DNA of 64,000 bases. It comes from Chalara sp. BL73 (Eukaryota > Ascomycota > Leotiomycetes > Helotiales). This document shows positions 15,973 through 37,414 of the stretch, piece by piece. Under the pieces are notes generated by a model that was given only the letters and a program-made list of their open reading frames with translations, had not been told where the DNA came from and did not search any database. Position numbers and translations under genes: made by a program. The stretch is taken from contig CAKJVC010000012.1 in NCBI GenBank assembly GCA_918026815.1, positions 2,046,001 through 2,110,000 on the forward strand, written 5' to 3'. Position 1 is the first letter of the stretch; every line of letters starts with the position of its first letter.

Positions 15973-18387
15973 ATGTCGGCACTAGAAACTACCATGCACT
16001 GTAAATCGAAGGGAAAGGCACACTCTTCAAGATTCAAATCGAAAACGAAGAAAGACGACTGGTCGGAGGTTACGGACCCTCAAGAACGAAGACGCATTCA
16101 GAATCGAATTGCTCAAAGGAAGTTCCGTAAGCTGATAGACTCGAAATTTGTGATAAATCTGGGACTGACTCTGTACCCTTCTACCAGGTGATAAGGCTAA
16201 AGAAGCCAAAGAACAGCAAGCTCGGGAGGCAGAAGAACAGGTTCGTGCAGGCAGTTTCTATATCAAACCTGAGCCGAATGAGTGGGGAGACGAGAATGAA
16301 CTCTCAGGTTTACCATGGGGTTCCCCCTCCGGCTTTGGGAGAGGCCGGACTTTACGTCGAAGAGACTCGAAGTATATACAAGCTGGCATTTTCATTTACC
16401 GGCAACTAATGATTGTAGCACATCTCTACTATCTGAACGTTTATCGGAAGCAACTAGACGACATATTGAGAATTCTACATCACGCCCATGCACACCCAGC
16501 GACAGCTTCCCACGTGGGCAATCTCCCTTCCGGCCAGAATCACCATTCTACACGCCATTCTACACGCCTCCTTCCCCTTTTACTGAAACCTTTGGCAACC
16601 CTGGCGTAAATCCTTTTGTTTTGTGGGGAGGATTATATAGAAGCCCCTCAGTCCGTGATGTCAAGCCTGCCGAGAGCATAGAGGCGAATTCGGTGGAAGA
16701 ATCGACGCAGCCTGATGAGCCAAGCGACAGAACCGCGAAACTTGAAAGGGCACTTTATTTCCCAAATCTTGAGGCCAGCCTGAGTGTAGATCGCGAATCA
16801 TCAAAGTCGCTATCGGAGCAAACAGGTAAAAGCGCAGATCCCGAGCGAGAGTCTGGGGGAAATGATTCGCACCAGAACTCGGACTCATCACAGGTCATAA
16901 ACGCAACCAACTCTCGAAGAGTATTAGGCATACCAATTGATGCACATCTGGCCTTACAGGCAGCTGACGAAAGGCGTGCACGCAACGCTAGCGCCTCAGC
17001 GCGGTTTCGTCAACGACGAAAAGAGAAGGAGAAGGAGGCGAGCGCCACTATTGAGAAGATGCAGCAGCAGATCCGGGTGCTGGAACGAAGAATCACCTCT
17101 CGGGGTTTGTTTAACAAGCCATTTGACGCGTACCAGACGTCAAATGTAGCTGACTTTGAGAAGACTCTGCCTGACGACGCCGGCTCCTCGGCTCGATTCC
17201 GTCAGCGACAAAAGCAGAAAACGCAGGAAGCCAGTACTGTCATTGAGAAGATGCAACAGCACATAAAAGAGCTGCAATGCATACTTGAGGAAAATGGTGA
17301 AACAGTACTACATTCAACTCTCCCAAGTTCGACCAGCCCGTCCCGTGAAGGTGTAGTTTTGAAAGCTTCTTCGGAAACCTGTGCTCAACCTCCGAACGAG
17401 TCAAAGGCAAATTTCCACACTACGGAACCAGTTAAGCGTTCTTCTGTACCGTCTAAGTCATCGATGGTGCGTCAAGTTCTCAGAGAATATTCCCTTCTTT
17501 TTCTTTTTCCAAATTTACAAATCGCAAGTCTCAGAGTAAAATCCTCTGCTTTTACATTTTTCATGAGCCATGAAACATTCCCCAACCTTTATAAATCCAC
17601 AAAGACACATAACCTAATAGGTATTGTCACTGCAGGAGGATCTCCGGCCATGTCATAGTGATCAGACTTTACCACAAGCTGAAATTACCAATATTTCCAA
17701 CCAGGATGGCAGGACTGACAAGCGAAGAGACGATCATGCTGAGGAGGCAGTAGGGGAAGCTCAACCACAAGGGATCTTTCAACTTACCTCCTCAGACCTA
17801 TCCCTGATACCTGTGCCTTCGGTCTCGTCCAAGCCAATAGCCCTGGCGGAAAATACAGCAGTATGTTCAATTTGCCAAAAGTTTACTGGAAGGCCTAGCG
17901 AGATCCGGTATTTGACCTTGCTTTCGTTAGAATAACTTTACTAATGATTTACAGAAAGCATATGAGACGGCACGAACGACCGTATGGTTGTACATATCCC
18001 TTGTGTGCAAAGAGCTTCGGAAGCAAATTTGACTGGAAGCGACATGAGCAGTATCAACACGCTGAGCCCTGGGAAGATCAGCCTGACCAGCTAACGACTT
18101 CCGGAGACGTTCGAGACATTCCATCCACAGATTCCCTCAACGAGAATAGTAGAAAGAGGCAGCATCATCAACTTGATTTTCATGACTCAGATACTGCTCA
18201 GGACGGGACAGGGCGAGGCCTAGCTGGAGGTTCTATTGGGTCTCGTGCTTTTTGGTGCGGTTTCTGTGATGGTTTCGTGCCCGTTGCAAATGAGCTCGTG
18301 AGGGCTTGGACTGAGCGATCTGATCACATCACAAATCACTTTATACGCGATGAAAAGCGAATTGAGGAATGGATAGTCGCTAACTGA
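15973..18387 (+). CDS. transcription factor with three bZIP-type basic regions and C2H2 zinc fingers
   Basis: Five exons: 15973-16126, 16188-16371, 16419-17466, 17636-17907 and 17955-18387, total 696 residues. Every junction has GT-AG and keeps frame; the intron at 16372 has a CTAAT branch site. Domains in order: a fungal bZIP basic region, DPQERRRIQNRIAQRKFR (about 35-52); a Pro/Ser-rich linker; a second basic region, NASASARFRQRRKEKE (about 301-316), followed by a short heptad-like helix; a third, partly repeated copy starting SSARFRQRQKQK (about 369); a Ser/Thr-rich linker; and two C2H2 fingers (about 539-588), the first split by the last intron. A further CxxC...HxxxH pattern follows in the tail. 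Presumed nuclear DNA-binding regulator; targets unknown. The first and last modules could belong to separate genes if the 169-nt intron at 17467 is wrong, but the frame fit argues for one gene. Confidence 0.72.
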
Positions 18388-19333: not shown

Positions 19334-21254
19334 ATGGTTGTCGACCCGTTATCTGTCGCGGGGCTTGCGTTGGGGGCAATTTCTCTTTCCGCTCAAGTTC
19401 TGAAAGGATGTTTGCAAGGTATGTCTAGAACATAGCTCTCACCACTTTGGCTTTTGCTGACGCCCTCAAGCATTTGAAATCTTCCAGGGCGCAGTTGACT
19501 TACCCCAAGACTGTGCTGGGCTCTCCCTTCGATTAGAAATCGAGTACGGAAGGCTCAAGAACTGGAGTCAAGTTGCCGGATTGCTAGACTTCCAAGACGA
19601 GTCCAAAGTTTGTGGTACAATCCGGGCCAACAGATTACTGTTAGCTGCAATCTTGACTGAGATCCAAACGTCGATGACTTCATTTGCGGAGCTCAATGGC
19701 CAATATATTGAGCTCCACTCAAATCGAGGAATTGGTGTCTTCAAAGACGGTGGCGGGAAAAGCAATGACGGAGTGACCCGAGCTGATTTGGTAACCGAGC
19801 TTGGGGCTTTGGATTCCCCATACGGCCAAAACGCACCGATGGCCAAGAAGGGAGTCCTAGCTGGTGTTTCTGCTGTCTTTCGAGATACAGGGACAGTCAT
19901 TAGACATCCCAAGAAACTAAAATGGGCTTTAATATCGAGGGATCGCTTTGAGAAGCTCCTCGGTCGATTACAAGAATTGATTGACTATCTGCACGAGCTT
20001 ATGGACGATCAGCAAATGGAGGTTCTACATAAGACCACACAGAAAACGTACCTGGAGATGCTGCAACTCCGAAGTACAGTCGAGGAACTAAAGGAGCTGA
20101 TGGATGCAGTGAAGCCACTCAATCAGTTCACCGTCAATATGCAAGTTGTCATTCCAAATAATCAGGTCAGGGATGAAGACAAAGGAGAGCTTTTGAAGTT
20201 AGCGGCTTTCAAGAGCTCAAGCTTTGCACTGAGCAAGAATACCACAAGCGGAGGAATAAAAGTAAAGGAGATTTTGACCTCTTCCCTGACATTCGAAAGC
20301 TCAACATTCGCTGGTGGGCGTGCGGATGCTATTTATCACACGGGTGGTACGCCGCGGCGCGTTTGGGTGGAGTGGAAAGAACTCAAAGTCTATGAAAATG
20401 AGCAAATATCTGATCAGCAAGCTTTGCTCGGCCGTATCAAGGAACTTGCAGCACTTCTGGCTTTGGATAAGCCAAAAGAATTCTGTGCCCCTACTTGCCT
20501 TGGATATATTGACGCTCGGCAAGACGCAACAGCTGTAGGTCGATTCGGGATGGTCTTTGCAGTCCCTAGGGACCTCGACGTTAAAGACAGCCCAGTATCT
20601 ATTACCCAAGCAATAAAAGAGACCTCCATGCCATCTCTCAACAAGCGCGTTGCTCTTGCGTCCAAAATTGCAAGCTGCCTTTTCTACTTACATTCCGTCA
20701 ATTGGCTTCATAAAGGGTTCCGCAGTGAGAACCTTATCATTTTTCGAGACGCAAATAAAGAGTTTCTCACTCAACTTTATCTGACAGGATTTGAATATGC
20801 TCGACCAGCTCGAAGTGGAGAGGCAACTGAGGCAATTCCCCATGTACCAGCTTGGGAGATCTACCGACATCCGAATATTCAAGGGAGCGAGATGCAATCA
20901 CGTCGATACTACCGAAAAACATACGACATCTACAGCATGGGGATTGTGTTGATTGAAGTAGCCCTCTGGAAATCGATAGATGAGGCGGTGGGAATCGCGA
21001 ATATCGAGGACGCGTCGCCGCAGATCACGTATCACGTCAGGGACTCCCTACTAAACACCAATCCTCAAATCTTGGAGACAGTGCGATCACATATGGGAAA
21101 CAAGTATCATGATGCTGTCAAGGCGTGCATTACCGGTGGGGAAAGTTTCGGAATTTCTCCAGGCGATGATGAGACTACAAATAGATCTGGAGCTATTTTA
21201 CAAGACAATTTTCGGAAGGAAGTGTTGGATAAGCTGACTTCGATTGCTGTTTGA
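19334..21254 (+). CDS. HeLo-domain protein with C-terminal pseudokinase domain
   Basis: Exons 19334-19418 and 19471-21254 (52-nt intron) encode 622 residues. The N terminus (about 1-200) has the HeLo pattern: hydrophobic first helix MVVDPLSVAGLALGAISLSA, then an LRLEIEYGRLKNW helix and a later W-A-L...LQELIDYLHEL helix. HeLo domains form membrane-active helical bundles that execute cell death in fungal heterokaryon incompatibility and are related to the four-helix bundle of MLKL. The C-terminal half (about 300-560) has a kinase fold: a beta3 Lys in VEWKEL (about 330) is present, but the HRD loop reads HKGFRSEN (about 442-449) and the DFG position reads GFE (about 468), so both catalytic aspartates are gone. 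This predicts a non-catalytic switch domain controlling the HeLo effector. The next gene downstream, on the same strand, carries an intact kinase. Confidence 0.85.
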
Positions 21255-21821
21255 TAATGATACCTTCATTGCAAGGCGTCAAAGGAGCATAGATTCTTAC
21301 CCAGTGCTAACATTCTATGTTATTAGCGTCGTTGTAGAAAAGTTTTGTGCCACTTATTATTTATGAATCTATGTCAGCCTTGAGGCTCTGCCTTGCACAG
21401 GCTCCTCTGTAAGTATCGACTCATACCCCGCAGTTCAAGCCTGTGTTGTCCAATTGGGTGGTATTGAGCCCTGCATGTTGACCTCTGTAAGACCTCTTCG
21501 CGGCTGAGTGAGGCTGAGCAACTACTGGCAAATTTATTATCTCATACCTTCACGAACCTTTGATGGCTTGATTTAACTAGATTGCGAAGTCGTTGGTCCT
21601 TTTCATTGATATATCCGCATAGCCAGATAAGAGGAGTGTTCATATTCTGTCCCTCTGCTCGCAGCAGTGTCAGCTTCATGTCACCGACGAGGCTACTGCC
21701 CGCTCACCGTGATTCCTCTGATCAACCGCACAAATGCCTGCTTACAGCTTATTCGAAGTAACCCTTGATCACAGACTCGAGAAGTGCCTTCTGCATCTAC
21801 GTGTGATCCTTGATAGTCGCA
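21255..21821. other. intergenic between HeLo gene and kinase gene
   Basis: 567 bp on the shared strand; no coding feature recognised. Presumed 3' flank of the HeLo gene and promoter of the kinase gene. Confidence 0.55.
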
Positions 21822-24800
21822 ATGGCTACTACGAAGGCGACTCCCATGCGACACTGTCGCGAGGCGCCTGCACATATTACCAAGTTGGCCTATCTGTTTC
21901 CAATCCATGCGGATGAAACATCCTCTCGAAAGCAACCTTTTGTAGACGAAGACTTTCGCGGGATCATGGAGGTGCTCCGCGAATTCGGCTATATGACCTG
22001 GGCTGTAATCCCTCGAACATATGCCATTTTGCGGCTCATTCGCCGAATCGAAGACATGGATGATTTTCTGGAGCAAAACCTGAGCGATCTCTCGATACCA
22101 TATACAAATGATAACCTCCCGATAAACCTCTCACAATCGACCAAAGCGAGCTTCCTCAAAGTTCAACACCTGGTGTTGACGAGCGCAATGGATCTCGAAA
22201 GAGGTGAGGCTGGCGAGCATAAACATATAAAATCTCACGAAGAACTTCAATTTGATGTGGTTGGCGAGCTCGGCAGGGGCGGCGGATGCACACAAGTCCA
22301 AAAGGTGTGGAGTAATATTGGCCGTGCCCTGTACGCTGTAAAGTTTATCCGACGGGGGGAATACTTCCAAGGAGATCGTAACGCCTTGCGAGACTTCGAA
22401 GGTGAGCTGCAAAGTGCGAAGAAAGTCTTGCATCACCACGTGGTCAAGATTGTCGGAAGCTTCACCGAAGAAAAGTATGTTGGTATTATAATGGAAACGG
22501 TGGGGGAGATGAATCTCGGACAACTCCTTAAGAGACCGATCAACGCTGACACCAAGTCCTCTCTCCGAACTTATTTTGGGTGTCTTGCTTCTGGCCTCTT
22601 TGCCATCCACCAAGTTGGTATTAAACATAAAGATGTTAAGCCAGAAAATATTGTGATCAGAAAGTCTATAGCATACTTTACAGATTTTGGTCTTGCACTC
22701 GACTTTTCGACCACTGAGGAAAATCGTAGTACAACTATGGGCAAACCGGCTGTGAAGTATACTGCCCTATACTCTGCGCCGGAGTGGTGGGCCTGGAGTG
22801 AGCGAAATACTCTATCAGATATTTGGTCGTTGGGTGCGGTATACCTCGAGATGGCAACTGTCCTGTATGGCGAGACGGTCCACAAGTTATGGGATTTCTT
22901 AGCCAATCATGGAACACAGAACACTGTATCATATAGCCGTAATCTGAGCGGCGTTCTTGAATGGATTGATTTCCTTCGCTCAAAACCTAGCCACGAGACG
23001 GATACTGTTGCCCTTGATGTTGTTGAAGCTACAATGAAAGAGGCCAAAGAAAAGCGACCCAAGAGTTATCAGTTGTGGAAGATGATTGAAAATCAGGCGC
23101 CACGGCACGTATCCTTTGCTTGCCGAGCATGTGTCGAAAGTTTTCATCCGACTGAGAGACCAACTCAACGGCCTCCAGGCAGAGGACAAGTAGATTCTGC
23201 TCCCGAATTTTCACGGCTCGAGCCAGTTGCCTCTAGGCAAGAATTAATCTACCCAGAAATACATGAATTCCAACATCCAATATCCTTGCCGGAGTCCATA
23301 CCGCATGAAGCTGGCCTGGTTAGGAATGACACTGTAATTGTGAGCTTGCTTAACTAGGTAGCCTTTTATGGTAGAACCCGCCAACTAATTTTGATCTCTA
23401 GTCTAGGGCACCCTTCCCGATAGCTGTTTTCTTGGAAAACAGGTGGGATGGTGCAGTTGCAGAGTATGACAGTGACGATCTGAGTTTCATTAGCGATCGG
23501 ACTATCCGAAGGCACAAATTGAAGCTTGCGGATGGAAACATTCTCTTGACGTGGATGTATGACGGCCGCAGTCACCGGACTCGATTTTTCCCAAGCGAAC
23601 ATTTGGGTACAGATTTCCAGCTCGGGTTAAAGTGCCTTGACGAGACCTTTAATGTTGAAGATGCCCATCGCGTATTCAGAGGCCGTCAGCAAAATAAGGT
23701 TGGGTCAGCAGCTCCCCCAACTTCATCATTGACAGGTGGTCTCAAGACTACCGAAAAAGACAAAGATGTCTTGATTGATCCAAAACTAGACCTAGCGTCA
23801 AATCAAACGGTGAGATCAAATTGGTACAAAACGATGTCATTGTCGGGCAACAACTCTGACAAGTAAATGCAGCTCACAAAGGCGGTCGGAGAGTTAACGA
23901 AAACAAGCACAACAGATCCGCCAATGCATGATAAAGCTTCTGGCGGCATCAGGAAATTGGAAGACCGGAAGCGTGCAGCCACAGTCTCGAAAAATGCGGA
24001 AGAAAACAATCAAAATTCCAAGAAAGAGGAAGTTTCAGCAAAGGCTACAAAGAAAGTGTTAGACAAAGAAAAGAAGATTGAAGACCTCAAAAAGTTTGCT
24101 TCGTCAATGAAACTTCCAACCGCTATCCCGGCAGACTTGGTATCGGTTTTATCGAATGACAAACACAAGCAAAAGGAGCTTATTCAAAAGCAGAATGACA
24201 TTGTCAATAAAACAACAGGATCGAAGAAAGCAGTAGTTAAGGACCAATCTTCCCAGCAACGAGCTTCACCATCCAAAGAGAGCCCATCCGCTTTACCACC
24301 GCCGAAACCGAATAGCGCTCAGCCTCAGCAAGTAAAGGACTCAGATAGCAATGACAAACCAGCAGTGTCTCAAGTTTACCAGCCATATGTCCCTCAACCT
24401 TATTATGGATACTCCACATATGGCGGATTGAGCAACTACTCTACACAACAAGGAGAACCTTCTATAATTTCCAGAATCACTATGCAACTCGAGTTCCACT
24501 TTTCGACAGACAATCTAGTCAAAGACTTCGACTTGAGAAAACACATGGACTCCCAAGGCTTTGTTTTCTTGTTCTTCATTGCAAGCCTTGACAAGATTCA
24601 GGCTCTTTATGCTTCTATAACCCTGTTACGAAGTATTTGCATTAATTCGGATGTAATTGAAATTGTTAAAGGCGATGATCAAATCGAACGTGTACGGAGA
24701 AAGTATGGCTGGCAACCTTGGGTTCTGGAAATATCGTCGAGGTTTCCTCATGCAAGACATGATGGGCCGGAAAAGCATGTACCAGTAATGTCGGCCTTGC

Positions 24801-25915
24801 AAACATATGGCTATCATTTACCAACGTCACAATACGGCATACAGCCACCATATGGCTACCCATACCGCTCATCACCATATGGCCAGCTCCATTATCCACC
24901 AAGGAGTGATTTAGGGAGCCCCCCTAGCTCCACACCGCCTGAGTATCGCCCTATACACATCGCATCTTACCCTCGAACGTTGGGTTCTCAACGTCCCTTG
25001 CAGACCTACAATAATTTTATGTATACTTCGGCTTACCCACCGTACCAGCCCTTATCTGGAGGGACGCAAGCGCAGTCAGCGTCAACAAAGGAGCCGTCAA
25101 CTGTTTTGAGTCCCAGCCAACCATCAAAATCTTTAAATGAGCGTCCACCAGCCTTTACCATCCCTCCGAAAAAATCAGCTGCAATTGTCGTCAATCTCCC
25201 AAAAACGTCACAGATAGGACAAGCGGAGAAGCCCAAAGTGAGGTTTGCCTCTGAACCTCCCAAGGCTCCGCCAAAAGCTCCTTCCTCCACTCAGCAGAAT
25301 CCATCAGTGTCTCTTGGGCAATCAAACCCAGTTACCCAGGCTAACAATGCATCTAAAAACCGGCCAACACCATCAACTCTTATCAAACAACCACAGTTAA
25401 ACAGTCCAAATCAGCACCTTGAGCCTCCTAATGTGTTGTCACAGACCGGCAAGAACTTCAACAAATTAGAAGCAGACACAAAAATTAAGGGTGGCAGGAA
25501 TTCCAACTCAATAAGAGAAGCCTCTAATTCTCAAAATTTCGGTAAATTCACCACCCTAGCTCTACTAGATCAACCAAATACAAAGGGTTACTCACTACCT
25601 CCAAGAAGTCTTTGGAGTCAAGTGGCGGCGTTCCCAACGAAAGAAAGCCCACTTGGCAAACCAATTGATCTTGATCTTGACACTGGCCGTCCTTGGTCTC
25701 ATGAAGAAGACGCCTTGCTGTGCATAGCTTATGGCGAGACAACTCCTACAAATTGGAAGACGATTGCAGCGATAGTAGGAACTAGATCGCAGGGACAATG
25801 TAAGACGAGAGCTAAGAATCTGGATCGAATCATGAGCCCGGAGTTGAGGATTGAATTGTTGAAGACGATTAAAGAGATGATCCAGCGGAAGAAGAATGAT
25901 GCAGTGTCTGATTGA
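21822..25915 (+). CDS. serine/threonine kinase apparently fused to La motif and SANT/Myb motif
   Basis: Proposed exons: 21822-23339, 23402-23862 and 23908-25915, 1328 residues. Intron 1 (GTGAGC...CTCTAG, CTAAT branch site) links the kinase to a second open stretch that has no good start of its own. Intron 2 (45 nt, GTAAAT...ACAAG, TTAAC branch-like) removes an in-frame TAA at 23864. Without the introns the kinase ends at 23357 and the rest would start at ATG 23867. Kinase (about 150-440): Gly loop GELGRGGG, AVKF Lys (about 173), HKDVKPEN (about 268), TDFGLA (about 287) and SAPEWW, so catalytically complete. Residues 507-660 form an unrecognised beta-rich region. A La motif (about 850-935; QLEFHFSTDNL, LRKHMDSQGFV, YGWQPWVL) resembles LARP-type RNA-binding domains. 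A SANT/Myb-like helix set (about 1253-1298; RPWSHEEDALLC) is near the end. Kinase identity is firm; the fusion is moderate. Confidence 0.62.
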
Positions 25916-34530: not shown

Positions 34531-35540
34531 TGCACTACCGTAGACTAGTATTCTGGTAGAATGGTGTCACATATTCCATCGTAAGGGAACAATTATCTGG
34601 CATTCTGCAAATCGCTTTCTTTGATCAAAGTCCGGAACAAGCGGAGAACAAACTCATGATCAAGTCTTTGCCTAAGCCGCCGGGGCATTGAGAATGTATA
34701 TCACGTGATTTAATGCGATACTGGCACGAGCTGAAAGGAAGCCTCCAAGCATGGTGAAAGTGTCAGAAAGATCAGCTGAACCCGTCTTGCACACCTATTT
34801 TTAAAAAAGGGATCACTCTCTGTCCTCTCCTTTCCATCTTGCCCTCAACAAACACGTGATCCATGCACCGCTCGCCAAGCAAACGCCCCTAAGTCGCACC
34901 GAAACAGCCCCTGATCGGCTCAAAGCTCCGAAACACAAAACAAAGTCTCATCAGACCCGCCCAGCCCCAAGTTGAAGGCGGATCATTCATGCCCTGTTTA
35001 AGCTTGAATTCGATCGTACGATAATGATGTTGGTTACCCAGTCCCCAAACAACAAACTGCCGGAGCGCGAAATTGAGGCGTAGGAAAATGTGCCAAAGTT
35101 TCGCCGGTGCATGCTTGGGTAAGCGAGGTGATCGGCGAGATTTAGAATGAGGATGGGATGAGGATTGGGAGGGTATAGGGGCCGTCTTATTTCTGGATGT
35201 GATGGACCGTATAGATTTTGGACGGTTCTGAAATGAGATCGAGGGAGGAAAGAACTTCTCAGCAAGGTGCATATAGACCACAACTTAGGACGGACGATTC
35301 ATCTCAACTCAAATCTCAAGTGTAGAGGGAAGCGGAGGCCATAGGATCACAAAAATATAAGGTAGACAACACTTTGTAAAAAAATTATTTCCCAAGCAGG
35401 AAGTGACTTATACATCGTGAAATCTAACACCAGCCATAAAAAGTTCCCACCAAACCCCCTTGTTGCCCCCAAGGTATTGTTCAATTCTAGTTTGACTCAT
35501 TTCATCAATAAGACGCTGGACCTCCAGACCAGCCAGGGCC
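34531..35540. other. intergenic
   Basis: No supportable gene. A 130-codon open frame on the minus strand (35281-34889) has no domain, signal peptide or intron pattern and is left unassigned. The 3' flank of the repeat-rich secreted gene (stop at 35541) lies at the right end. Confidence 0.45.
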
Positions 35541-37414
35541 TTAGTTCCTCGCGCGCCCTCTACCTCTACCACGACCGCCGAATCCTCCTTGCCCTCGTCC
35601 ACCTCCCTGGCCCGCGCCTGCGTTACCGGCGTTGGCATTTCCTGCATTTGCGTTGCCAGCGTTCGCGTCTGCATTTGCGTTGCCAGCGTTCGCGTCTGCA
35701 TTTGCGTTGCCAGCGTTCGCGTCTGCATTTGCGTTGTCAGCGTTCGCATCCGCATTTGCGTCGTCAGCATTAGCATCTGCATTGGCATCCGCATTTGCGT
35801 CTGCATTCGCATTGTCAGCATTGGCATCCGCATTTGCGTTGTCAGCGTTAGCATCTGCATTCGCATTGTCAGCGTTGGCATCCGCATTTGCGTCTGCATT
35901 TGCGTTGTCAGCGTTGGCATTATCCGCATTCGCATCGTCGGCGTTATCTGCGTTTGCGTTATCTGCATTGGCATCATCTGCGTTTGCGTCTGCATTATCT
36001 GCATTGGCATCATCTGCGTTTGCGTCTGCATTGGCATCATCTGCGTTCGCATTGTCGGCATTGGCGTCTGCATTATCTGCATTGGCATCATCTGCGTTTG
36101 CATCTGCATTGGCGTTATCTGCGTTCGCATTGTCGGCATTGGCGTCTGCATTATCTGCGTTGGCATCGTCTGCGTTTGCGTCGGCATTGGCATCGTCTGC
36201 GTTCGCATCTGCATTTGCGTTGTCGGCGTTAGCATTTGCGTTGTTCCCTTGGTTGGCGTTTGCATTGTTGCCCTGGTTGGCATTGTTGTTGTTGTTGCCT
36301 TGGTTGGCGTTGTTATTGTTGCCCTGGTTGGCGTTGTTGTTTCCGCCACCAGCACCGACTGTGAACTTCTGGCAATCATCCTGAGGCCCACGTTGAGCTA
36401 CAGGCATAATAACAGGTTGATGGTTGGATGCGGAGGTCATGCTGCAAACACGGTAGTTTCCTGCTGGAAGACCGCCTGTAACAGTGGCTGAAAGAAGGCC
36501 GTTGCCATTTCCGGCATCGTTGATACCTTTGAAGAAAACGAAAGTCTTAGGGTCTGGCGGGTTGTTTGGTTGCAAGCTGTTGCCCAAGTCCTGAACACTG
36601 ACGTGAGTATGCCCAATAATCTGGCCCTGGCCATTTAGGTCTTGCGGAGCAGAGTAGTATGTCTCTTGAGCGTTCGTAAAGGATCCAGCATCGAGACCTT
36701 GGACTTGAACGGAAATGGTGAAGTCTGTGTTCGCCTCCTTGTCCTCTCCAGGTAGTGGATCAACAATGACAGCTGAGATCATGTTGTTTGTGGAGGGAAT
36801 TTTGCCCATGACTACATGGGATGTCAGCTTGAGAAAGATTCGTTAAAACAGGAAATCTTACCGATTCCGTTGCATGAGCCACCTTGGACCTGGAGGCCGT
36901 TGGTCAGAGTCTCACCCGAACAGAAATTGATAAAGTTGTTATCATCACTATTCCCGCGTCAGTATATCGGGTTCTATCAAGGGCTTCTTTGCGACTCATA
37001 CGTTGCTGATGGGGATTGCCCATCTACAGGAGGGTCTTGACCGTCGCTTGCGCTTCCAGTCTGGATTGCGTTGGCCTCAAGACATGTTGCTGCAGCGTTA
37101 TTGTTTCCTCCGTTGTTGGCATTTCCCCCATTGTTGGCGTTGCCTCCATTGCCCGCATTTGCATTTCCTCCATTGTTGGCGTTACCAGCATTGGCATTTC
37201 CTGCATTTCCTGCATTCGCATTGCCACCTTGATTCTGGTTTCCACCTTGACCCTGACCTTGGCCTTGACCTTGACCCCCCCTTCCTTGACCATTTCTATT
37301 TTGAGGAAGAGCCGCCCTGCGGAATAAATTCGTGTTCTCTATGCTCCTCACAGAGAGAGCTTCTGTTGTTGTGGAGGCCAAAGCCAAAAGCACGACCGAG
37401 GCGCGAAGTAACAT
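35541..37414 (-). CDS. secreted protein with conserved core and long Ala-Asn-Asp repeat tail
   Basis: Exons 37414-37002, 36947-36862 and 36811-35541 (introns 54 and 50 nt) encode 589 residues. Signal peptide about 1-20. Then a Gly/Gln/Asn-rich spacer (about 40-110; GQGQGQGQGG and GNANAGNAGN units), a conserved core (about 113-310) and a repeat tail (about 325-560) built of ANAD, ANADD and NAD units after a short NNNANQG section, ending in a Gly/Arg-rich tip. The core has the pattern of a widespread fungal secreted family: TCLEANAIQTG near its start, NNFINFC, GKIPSTNNM, GQIIGHTHV, FVFFKGIND and ASNHQPVIMPVAQRG. Database entries for such proteins sometimes carry the wrong name ribosomal protein S17. 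Function unknown; a cell-surface or extracellular matrix role is plausible but inferred. The purely repetitive tail is probably variable in length between strains. Confidence 0.82.
35640..36260. repeat. coding minisatellite, Ala-Asn-Ala-Asp units
   Basis: About 600 bases of tandem 6- to 15-base units (GCATTTGCGTCT and GCATTGGCATCA type on the plus strand) inside exon 3 of the secreted gene. Unit length is a multiple of three, so copy changes would keep the frame. The lack of stop triplets makes long false open frames in the other five frames. Confidence 0.9.

Follow-up and report, generated by a model that had tools for sequence, protein, structure and literature searches.

A HeLo-pseudokinase gene beside an active-type kinase gene in Chalara sp. 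BL73: a recurrent pairing and a proposed kinase-switched cell-death module

The helotialean fungus Chalara sp. BL73 carries, on contig CAKJVC010000012.1 of assembly GCA_918026815.1, a gene coding for a HeLo protein with a dead kinase domain (gene A) and, 567 bp further on the same (+) strand, a gene coding for a catalytically complete kinase (gene B). Both lie in a stretch of 64,000 nucleotides (contig positions 2,046,001 to 2,110,000), referred to below as the window, whose numbering is used for the two genes. In the same genome, 10 of the 14 loci that encode A-type pseudokinases have an active-type kinase gene as neighbour, the pseudokinases and their partner kinases diverge in a correlated manner, and the additional modules of the kinases differ from pair to pair. 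On this evidence, A and B probably form a two-gene cell-death module in which the kinase would switch on the HeLo-pseudokinase. A necroptosis-like logic is thereby proposed; kinship by common origin with the MLKL and RIPK3 families is not implied.

Gene A has the MLKL-type layout of a four-helix bundle followed by a pseudokinase, with HeLo at residues 10-238, a kinase fold at residues 292-622 and no catalytic Asp. Its features are as follows.

19334..21254, + strand: gene A, HeLo plus pseudokinase, 622 amino acids, exons 19334-19418 and 19471-21254 (protein P0001 is equal in size and 98% identical)
19334..20099, + strand: HeLo region with hydrophobic N-terminal helix (Pfam PF14479, 1.6e-32, residues 10-238)
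20157..20225, + strand: helix between HeLo and pseudokinase, model residues 258-280 (predicted model of P0001, mean predicted local distance difference test score 69.7)
20259..21251, + strand: pseudokinase domain, about residues 292-622 (kinase fold in the predicted model)
20709..20717, + strand: HKG at the HRD position, catalytic Asp lost (bases read and aligned relatives)
20826..20828, + strand: Thr481 in the activation segment, candidate phosphorylation site (aligned relatives and paired pseudokinases)

The N-terminal match to PF14479 reaches 113.4 bits for a cut-off of 23.2 and spans profile positions 1-205 of 205, which places the protein in the HeLo family. With its hydrophobic N-terminal helix (hydropathy of 1.65 over 19 residues), the domain is a putative membrane-permeabilising and killing domain. 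The helix that follows presumably occupies the place of the MLKL brace. The kinase-like half matches DUF7580 above the Pfam cut-off (2.8e-7) and Pkinase below it (3.5e-6, 27.0 bits for a cut-off of 31.7), and reads TGF at the DFG position. A profile of the A family found the HET-s HeLo structure 2wvo (5.7e-5) and MLKL 4m68 (3.6e-5) among its matches. P0001 is an annotated protein of Bisporella sp. PMI_857; the other genera named among 25 homologues of gene A are Lepraria, Sclerophora, Cudoniella and Lasallia. DUF7580 was found in all 25 and HeLo in 23. In an alignment of 19 of these 25 homologues, the site of the catalytic Asp is occupied by Gly in 16 and Ala in three, and the Thr481 column holds Thr in 17 and Ser in two. 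Thr or Ser also stands at this column in eight of the ten paired pseudokinases, A included, the row of one of them (locus C9:1950) having been joined by eye. A conserved Thr/Ser in a domain deprived of its catalytic Asp is what a candidate phospho-acceptor would look like.

Gene B combines a kinase with several further modules.

21822..25915, + strand: gene B, kinase, ataxin-2-related segment, La motif and Myb-like domain, 1322 amino acids, exons 21822-23339, 23402-23809 and 23873-25915 (introns placed by eye)
21921..22256, + strand: N-terminal extension of the kinase, about residues 34-145, common to the partner kinase of locus C130 (38% identity over residues 34-418)
22257..23072, + strand: active-type kinase domain (Pfam PF00069, 1e-30)
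24038..24241, + strand: segment related to ataxin-2/Pbp1-type (LsmAD) proteins
24476..24634, + strand: La motif (Pfam PF05383, 1.1e-10)
25694..25825, + strand: Myb/SANT-like domain (Pfam PF13921, 8.3e-7)

The catalytic set is present, with Lys at 22341-22343, HKD at 22626-22634 and DFG at 22683-22691, so that by its motifs B would be an active Ser/Thr kinase, as is expected of a RIPK3-type activator. Among the 60 chains listed of the 1066 matched by this kinase domain there is no RIP kinase, StkP, TTK and NEK7 standing on top; the Pfam scan of the window proteins detected no RHIM, and no RHIM or PP profile was run. The ataxin-2-related segment has three matches in the genome, namely gene B itself and two (2.0e-9 and 2.2e-9) adjacent to the genome's two LsmAD domains; LsmAD is taken here as the mark of ataxin-2/Pbp1 proteins. 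Four of 17 B-type proteins match the LsmAD gene of contig C122. The linker matches are those of B (37% over 49 amino acids), P0026 (54% over 83 amino acids, 2e-25) and P0030 (40% over 63 amino acids), and P0149 matches within LsmAD itself (53% over 36 amino acids). The genome holds a second ataxin-2-type LsmAD gene (C59:517982-518762) besides that at C122:289111-289940; such genes are usually single-copy. The La motif of B is among the five La matches listed for the genome. Further modules are found in other relatives of B: RRM in P0027, GAT in P0028, a sub-threshold Myb in P0030, and ankyrin repeats in P0031, P0034, P0035 and P0037.

A two-gene model of this region, with a kinase followed by a La-Myb protein (an ATG at 23867 starts the last exon's frame), was rejected. 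Gene B is considered a single gene because in P0026 and P0030 one protein combines the kinase, the linker motif also present in B and a stretch of La or Myb; these stretches score 24.6 bits (La) and 21.8 bits (Myb), under the Pfam cut-offs of 37.1 and 22.9. In PMI_857 the annotated kinase is a 506-residue 'partial' protein, 99% identical to exon 1 of gene B, that stops at the end of this exon; the splice of gene B is thus without support from public annotation. The first-pass annotation of this DNA had described a HeLo protein with a dead kinase followed by a complete kinase on the same strand, and both descriptions hold. It had also placed RNA-binding and SANT modules on the kinase: the first is confirmed as La, the second is a Myb-like domain, and the ataxin-2-related segment had been overlooked.

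The recurrence of the pair was read in the 58.7 Mb of the genome (199 contigs; loci are named by contig and kb, e.g. C9:1950). The closest paralogue of gene A (C130:113572-115209, +, 34%) and that of gene B (C130:110061-111194, -, 38%, bearing TPR repeats) are neighbours, arranged divergently, unlike the tandem A/B. The ten paired loci are A/B, C130, C9:2197, C59, C67, C168, C3:1404, C129, C14 and C9:1950. Thirteen of the 14 pseudokinase loci came from the search for gene A paralogues; C9:1950 was noticed through its adjoining kinase hit, and leaving it out gives 9 of 13. The flanks are unequally covered, paired loci having been read mainly on the kinase side; at C67 and C14 the opposite side offers hardly any sequence, or none. 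Stop-to-stop gaps within pairs range from less than 50 bp to about 2.5 kb, and five pairs are divergent, three tandem and two convergent. Seen from the kinases, seven of the ten strongest loci of the TPR/ankyrin family adjoin a pseudokinase.

The partners are joined to varied modules on both sides. Among the ten paired pseudokinase genes, HeLo is present in A, C130, C9:2197, C3:1404 and C9:1950. At three others, a second kinase domain (HHD, DFG) precedes the pseudokinase in the same frame, without HeLo:

C59:98818-101685, C67:244610-246937 and C168:13151-16198: kinase-pseudokinase fusions, each adjoining a kinase-TPR gene

These fusions may resemble plant tandem kinases. The N-termini of the C129 and C14 pseudokinase genes have no Pfam match; a caspase-like N-terminus at C129 was seen by eye only, Pfam finds none and it is not claimed. 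Three fusions without HeLo and two N-termini without a Pfam match indicate that the constant core is kinase plus pseudokinase and not kinase plus HeLo. The idea of a pair put forward in the first-pass annotation is partly borne out, the pairing being well supported by the 10 loci and the correlated divergence, and the kinase-to-effector direction being a putative one. The partner kinases carry TPR repeats at C130 and C67 (Pfam) and at C59 and C168 (by eye), ankyrin repeats at C9:2194 and C3:1406 (Pfam) and at C9:1952 (by eye), and La-Myb in gene B; no further module was seen at C129 and C14. The TPR arrays are very regular by eye in the kinase genes C67:240902-242587 and C130:133347-135800, and repeat-to-repeat likeness is a trait of the fast-evolving repeats of fungal NLRs. 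Read by eye, the residue before the catalytic Asp is not Arg in nine of the ten partner kinases (Lys in B and C130, Ala in C129, Gly in C9:2194, C59, C67, C168, C3:1406 and C9:1952); that of C14 has HRD. Non-RD kinases are frequent in innate immunity. The C9:2194 kinase reads DFS where DFG is expected.

These features can be assembled into a mechanism. A would be the executioner, whose HeLo bundle, once released, would permeabilise the membrane, and its pseudokinase half would hold HeLo in check. B, a non-RD kinase, would act as both sensor and switch, its C-terminal arm (ataxin-2-related segment, La, Myb) detecting when RNA or RNA granules are disturbed, as a mycovirus might do. Activated in this way, B would dock on the pseudokinase of A and phosphorylate its activation segment, with Thr481 as the best candidate, which would release HeLo. 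At about ten loci this kinase-pseudokinase logic would be used again, with TPR or ankyrin modules on the kinases and, at three loci, a fused kinase in place of HeLo. We infer the interaction of the two proteins, the direction of phosphorylation, the killing and the ligand from the anatomy. A direction from kinase to pseudokinase, as from RIPK3 to MLKL, would fit the dead kinase of A, the Thr/Ser found in 19 of 19 aligned relatives and the exchangeable modules of the kinases.

Kinase and pseudokinase could also cooperate otherwise, the pseudokinase being a regulatory or decoy subunit that checks or guards the kinase and HeLo a mere membrane anchor. A guard or decoy role has been proposed for the pseudokinases of plant tandem kinases. 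The three paired loci at which kinase and pseudokinase are fused without HeLo speak for such an arrangement, as do the two more without a Pfam-assigned N-terminal domain. It is nevertheless held to be unlikely in view of the presence of HeLo in half of the paired genes and in 23 of the 25 A homologues, and of the fact that characterised relatives such as HET-S kill cells (PMC12881547).

The adjacency itself was compared with controls. With a uniform list of Pkinase matches, a kinase lies within 4 kb of six of the 14 pseudokinase loci (the C168 case being a kinase of the same frame), of none of the 16 loci that have HeLo but no A-type pseudokinase, and of none of the 13 other DUF7580 loci; this list is incomplete, 122 of 343 candidates having been scored. 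A 2-kb gene placed at random would have a kinase this close in 2.1% of cases, which gives P = 2e-7 for six of 14, and the comparison of 6/14 with 0/29 gives a Fisher P of 4.9e-4. Direct reading extended to six of the 16 HeLo-only controls (7.2-7.6 kb at each), where it detected no kinase match; the 13 DUF7580 controls were assessed from the list only. For 10/14 against 0/6 the Fisher P is 0.011, the kinase model of this count having been built from the partner kinases, so that only its zeros (six controls and four unpaired loci) are informative. The more two pseudokinases differ, the more their partner kinases tend to differ as well (Mantel r = 0.52, P = 3e-4, n = 10); the correlation persists without C14 (r = 0.45, P = 0.0056) and without both C14 and A (r = 0.71, P = 0.002). 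A and C130, as well as C59 and C67, are reciprocal nearest neighbours in both families. The correlated distances show co-inheritance, and by themselves they do not imply function.

The adjacency could accordingly be ascribed to the clustering of fast-evolving defence genes or to co-duplication, without functional link. Two HeLo-pseudokinase genes adjoin HET-like genes (identified by eye, C3:1400512-1402368 and C77:56973-59072), and duplication of whole segments would likewise produce correlated divergence. This explanation appears quite improbable given that kinases are lacking beside the HeLo-only loci (0/16 and 0/6) and the other DUF7580 loci (0/13), and that adjacency is kept despite the varied orientation of the ten pairs. 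B could instead be a kinase of RNA metabolism or stress granules that stands beside A by accident, even if the other pairs are real. This would suit its La, Myb and ataxin-2-related pieces and the RRM and LsmAD of its relatives, but is very improbable since the closest paralogue of B bears TPR repeats and adjoins the closest paralogue of A, and since the C-terminal modules vary among B relatives, unlike those of a housekeeping protein.

Several observations weigh against a kinase-switched cell-death module. The adjacency was read in one genome, which limits its scope, and four of the 14 loci (C3:1207, C77, C9:379 and C9:1854) show no kinase, 2.9-4.4 kb having been read to either side. HeLo is present in only half of the paired pseudokinase genes (five of ten), two of the ten have neither Thr nor Ser at the Thr481 column, and the C9:1950 pseudokinase retains Asp at the catalytic position. 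In the A-family profile search, LIMK1 (5e-8) and LIMK2 (1.2e-6) outrank MLKL (3.6e-5), and MLKL is absent from the 50 matches listed in each of two structural comparisons. The kinases of C9:1380, C59:109 and C130:136 have no pseudokinase within about 3 kb, so reciprocity is not complete. Beyond this genome, a point in favour is that in PMI_857 the orthologues of A (98%) and of B exon 1 (99%) each lie on a contig 821,261 bp long, equal size being taken as a sign, not as proof, of the same contig. Among the matches listed (25 A-type matches compared with the best 120 of 167 and 120 of 131 B-type matches), no other contig is common to A-type and B-type proteins, contigs having been matched by size and by eye. 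A scan of prokaryote and virus contig collections with the A-family profile found no relative, as expected there.

Around the pair, the window contains a bZIP-like gene upstream of gene A (16300-18387; Pfam PF07716, 2.7e-6). Among the further frames of the window that were scanned are genes for GLE1, a dihydroorotate dehydrogenase, an MFS protein and fungal transcription factors. A long low-complexity stretch at 35408-36842 is open in four listed frames; the one on the minus strand at 35541-36842 encodes N-A-D and N-A-N repeats.

The proposed module can be set beside several known systems. It shares with MLKL/RIPK3 and the plant MLKLs a four-helix bundle joined to a dead kinase fold, a separate active-type kinase as candidate activator and a Thr/Ser in the activation segment, RIPK3 phosphorylating the regulatory loop of the MLKL pseudokinase (PMC12881547). 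It differs from MLKL/RIPK3 in that the bundle is of the HET-s HeLo type, the partner kinases carry La, Myb and ataxin-2-related pieces, TPR or ankyrin repeats, the genes are paired, and phosphorylation is a candidate event only. As in het-S/nwd2 and HELLP/PNT1 of Podospora anserina, the HeLo or HELL executioner gene adjoins the gene of its putative activator. In those systems the activator is an NLR acting through amyloid templating, and the characterised fungal HeLo executioners described in these sources are fired in this way by NLRs or prions (PMC12881547, PMC10197012), whereas here a kinase would act on a pseudokinase. Fungal gasdermins clustered with TPR-bearing proteases likewise place a pore former next to an enzyme whose fused repeats form superstructures (PMC12881547), although there a protease acts on a gasdermin and here the partners are kinase and pseudokinase. 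Sordariales NLRs with integrated kinase decoys of the CHK2/PRD-4 type also hold a housekeeping fragment inside a defence-type protein (PMC12258605), the kinase being the integrated piece there while here it is the core and the RNA-protein fragment would be the integrated part. The wheat tandem kinases Lr9 and Pm36/WTK7-TM are reported to have their kinase domains in tandem within one protein and may be compared with the three fusions. One domain of these wheat proteins is often a pseudokinase.

HELL-(pseudo)kinase proteins have already been noted in a 2025 review (PMC12881547), and a literature search, with most subscription papers and all preprints outside its coverage, returned no report of kinase/HeLo-pseudokinase gene pairs. 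The executioner architecture is therefore known, and the recurrent pairing with a kinase bearing exchangeable arms appears new. Adjacency recurring at 10 of 14 loci in one genome, five of the ten with HeLo, suggests a modified form of the two-gene cell-death clusters of fungi, one that may work like MLKL/RIPK3. A bolder extension, possible but doubtful, is that fungi possess an entire class of HeLo executioners gated by phosphorylation and served by plug-in sensor kinases (TPR, ankyrin, RNA-granule pieces). In the B type, captured ataxin-2-related, La, RRM or LsmAD pieces would be integrated decoys for the RNA-granule components that mycoviruses target, and the series from kinase through dead kinase to four-helix bundle at the core of necroptosis would either predate the animal-fungus split or have arisen twice.

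If the proposed kinase-switched module is real, a kinase-fired class would supply the missing half of the necroptosis analogy in fungi, a kinase acting on a pseudokinase effector. New candidate loci for self/non-self recognition or antivirus defence, independent of NLRs, would be at hand, and for gene B the ataxin-2-related piece suggests a concrete trigger. The origin of the necroptosis logic would then become testable across fungi, plants and animals.

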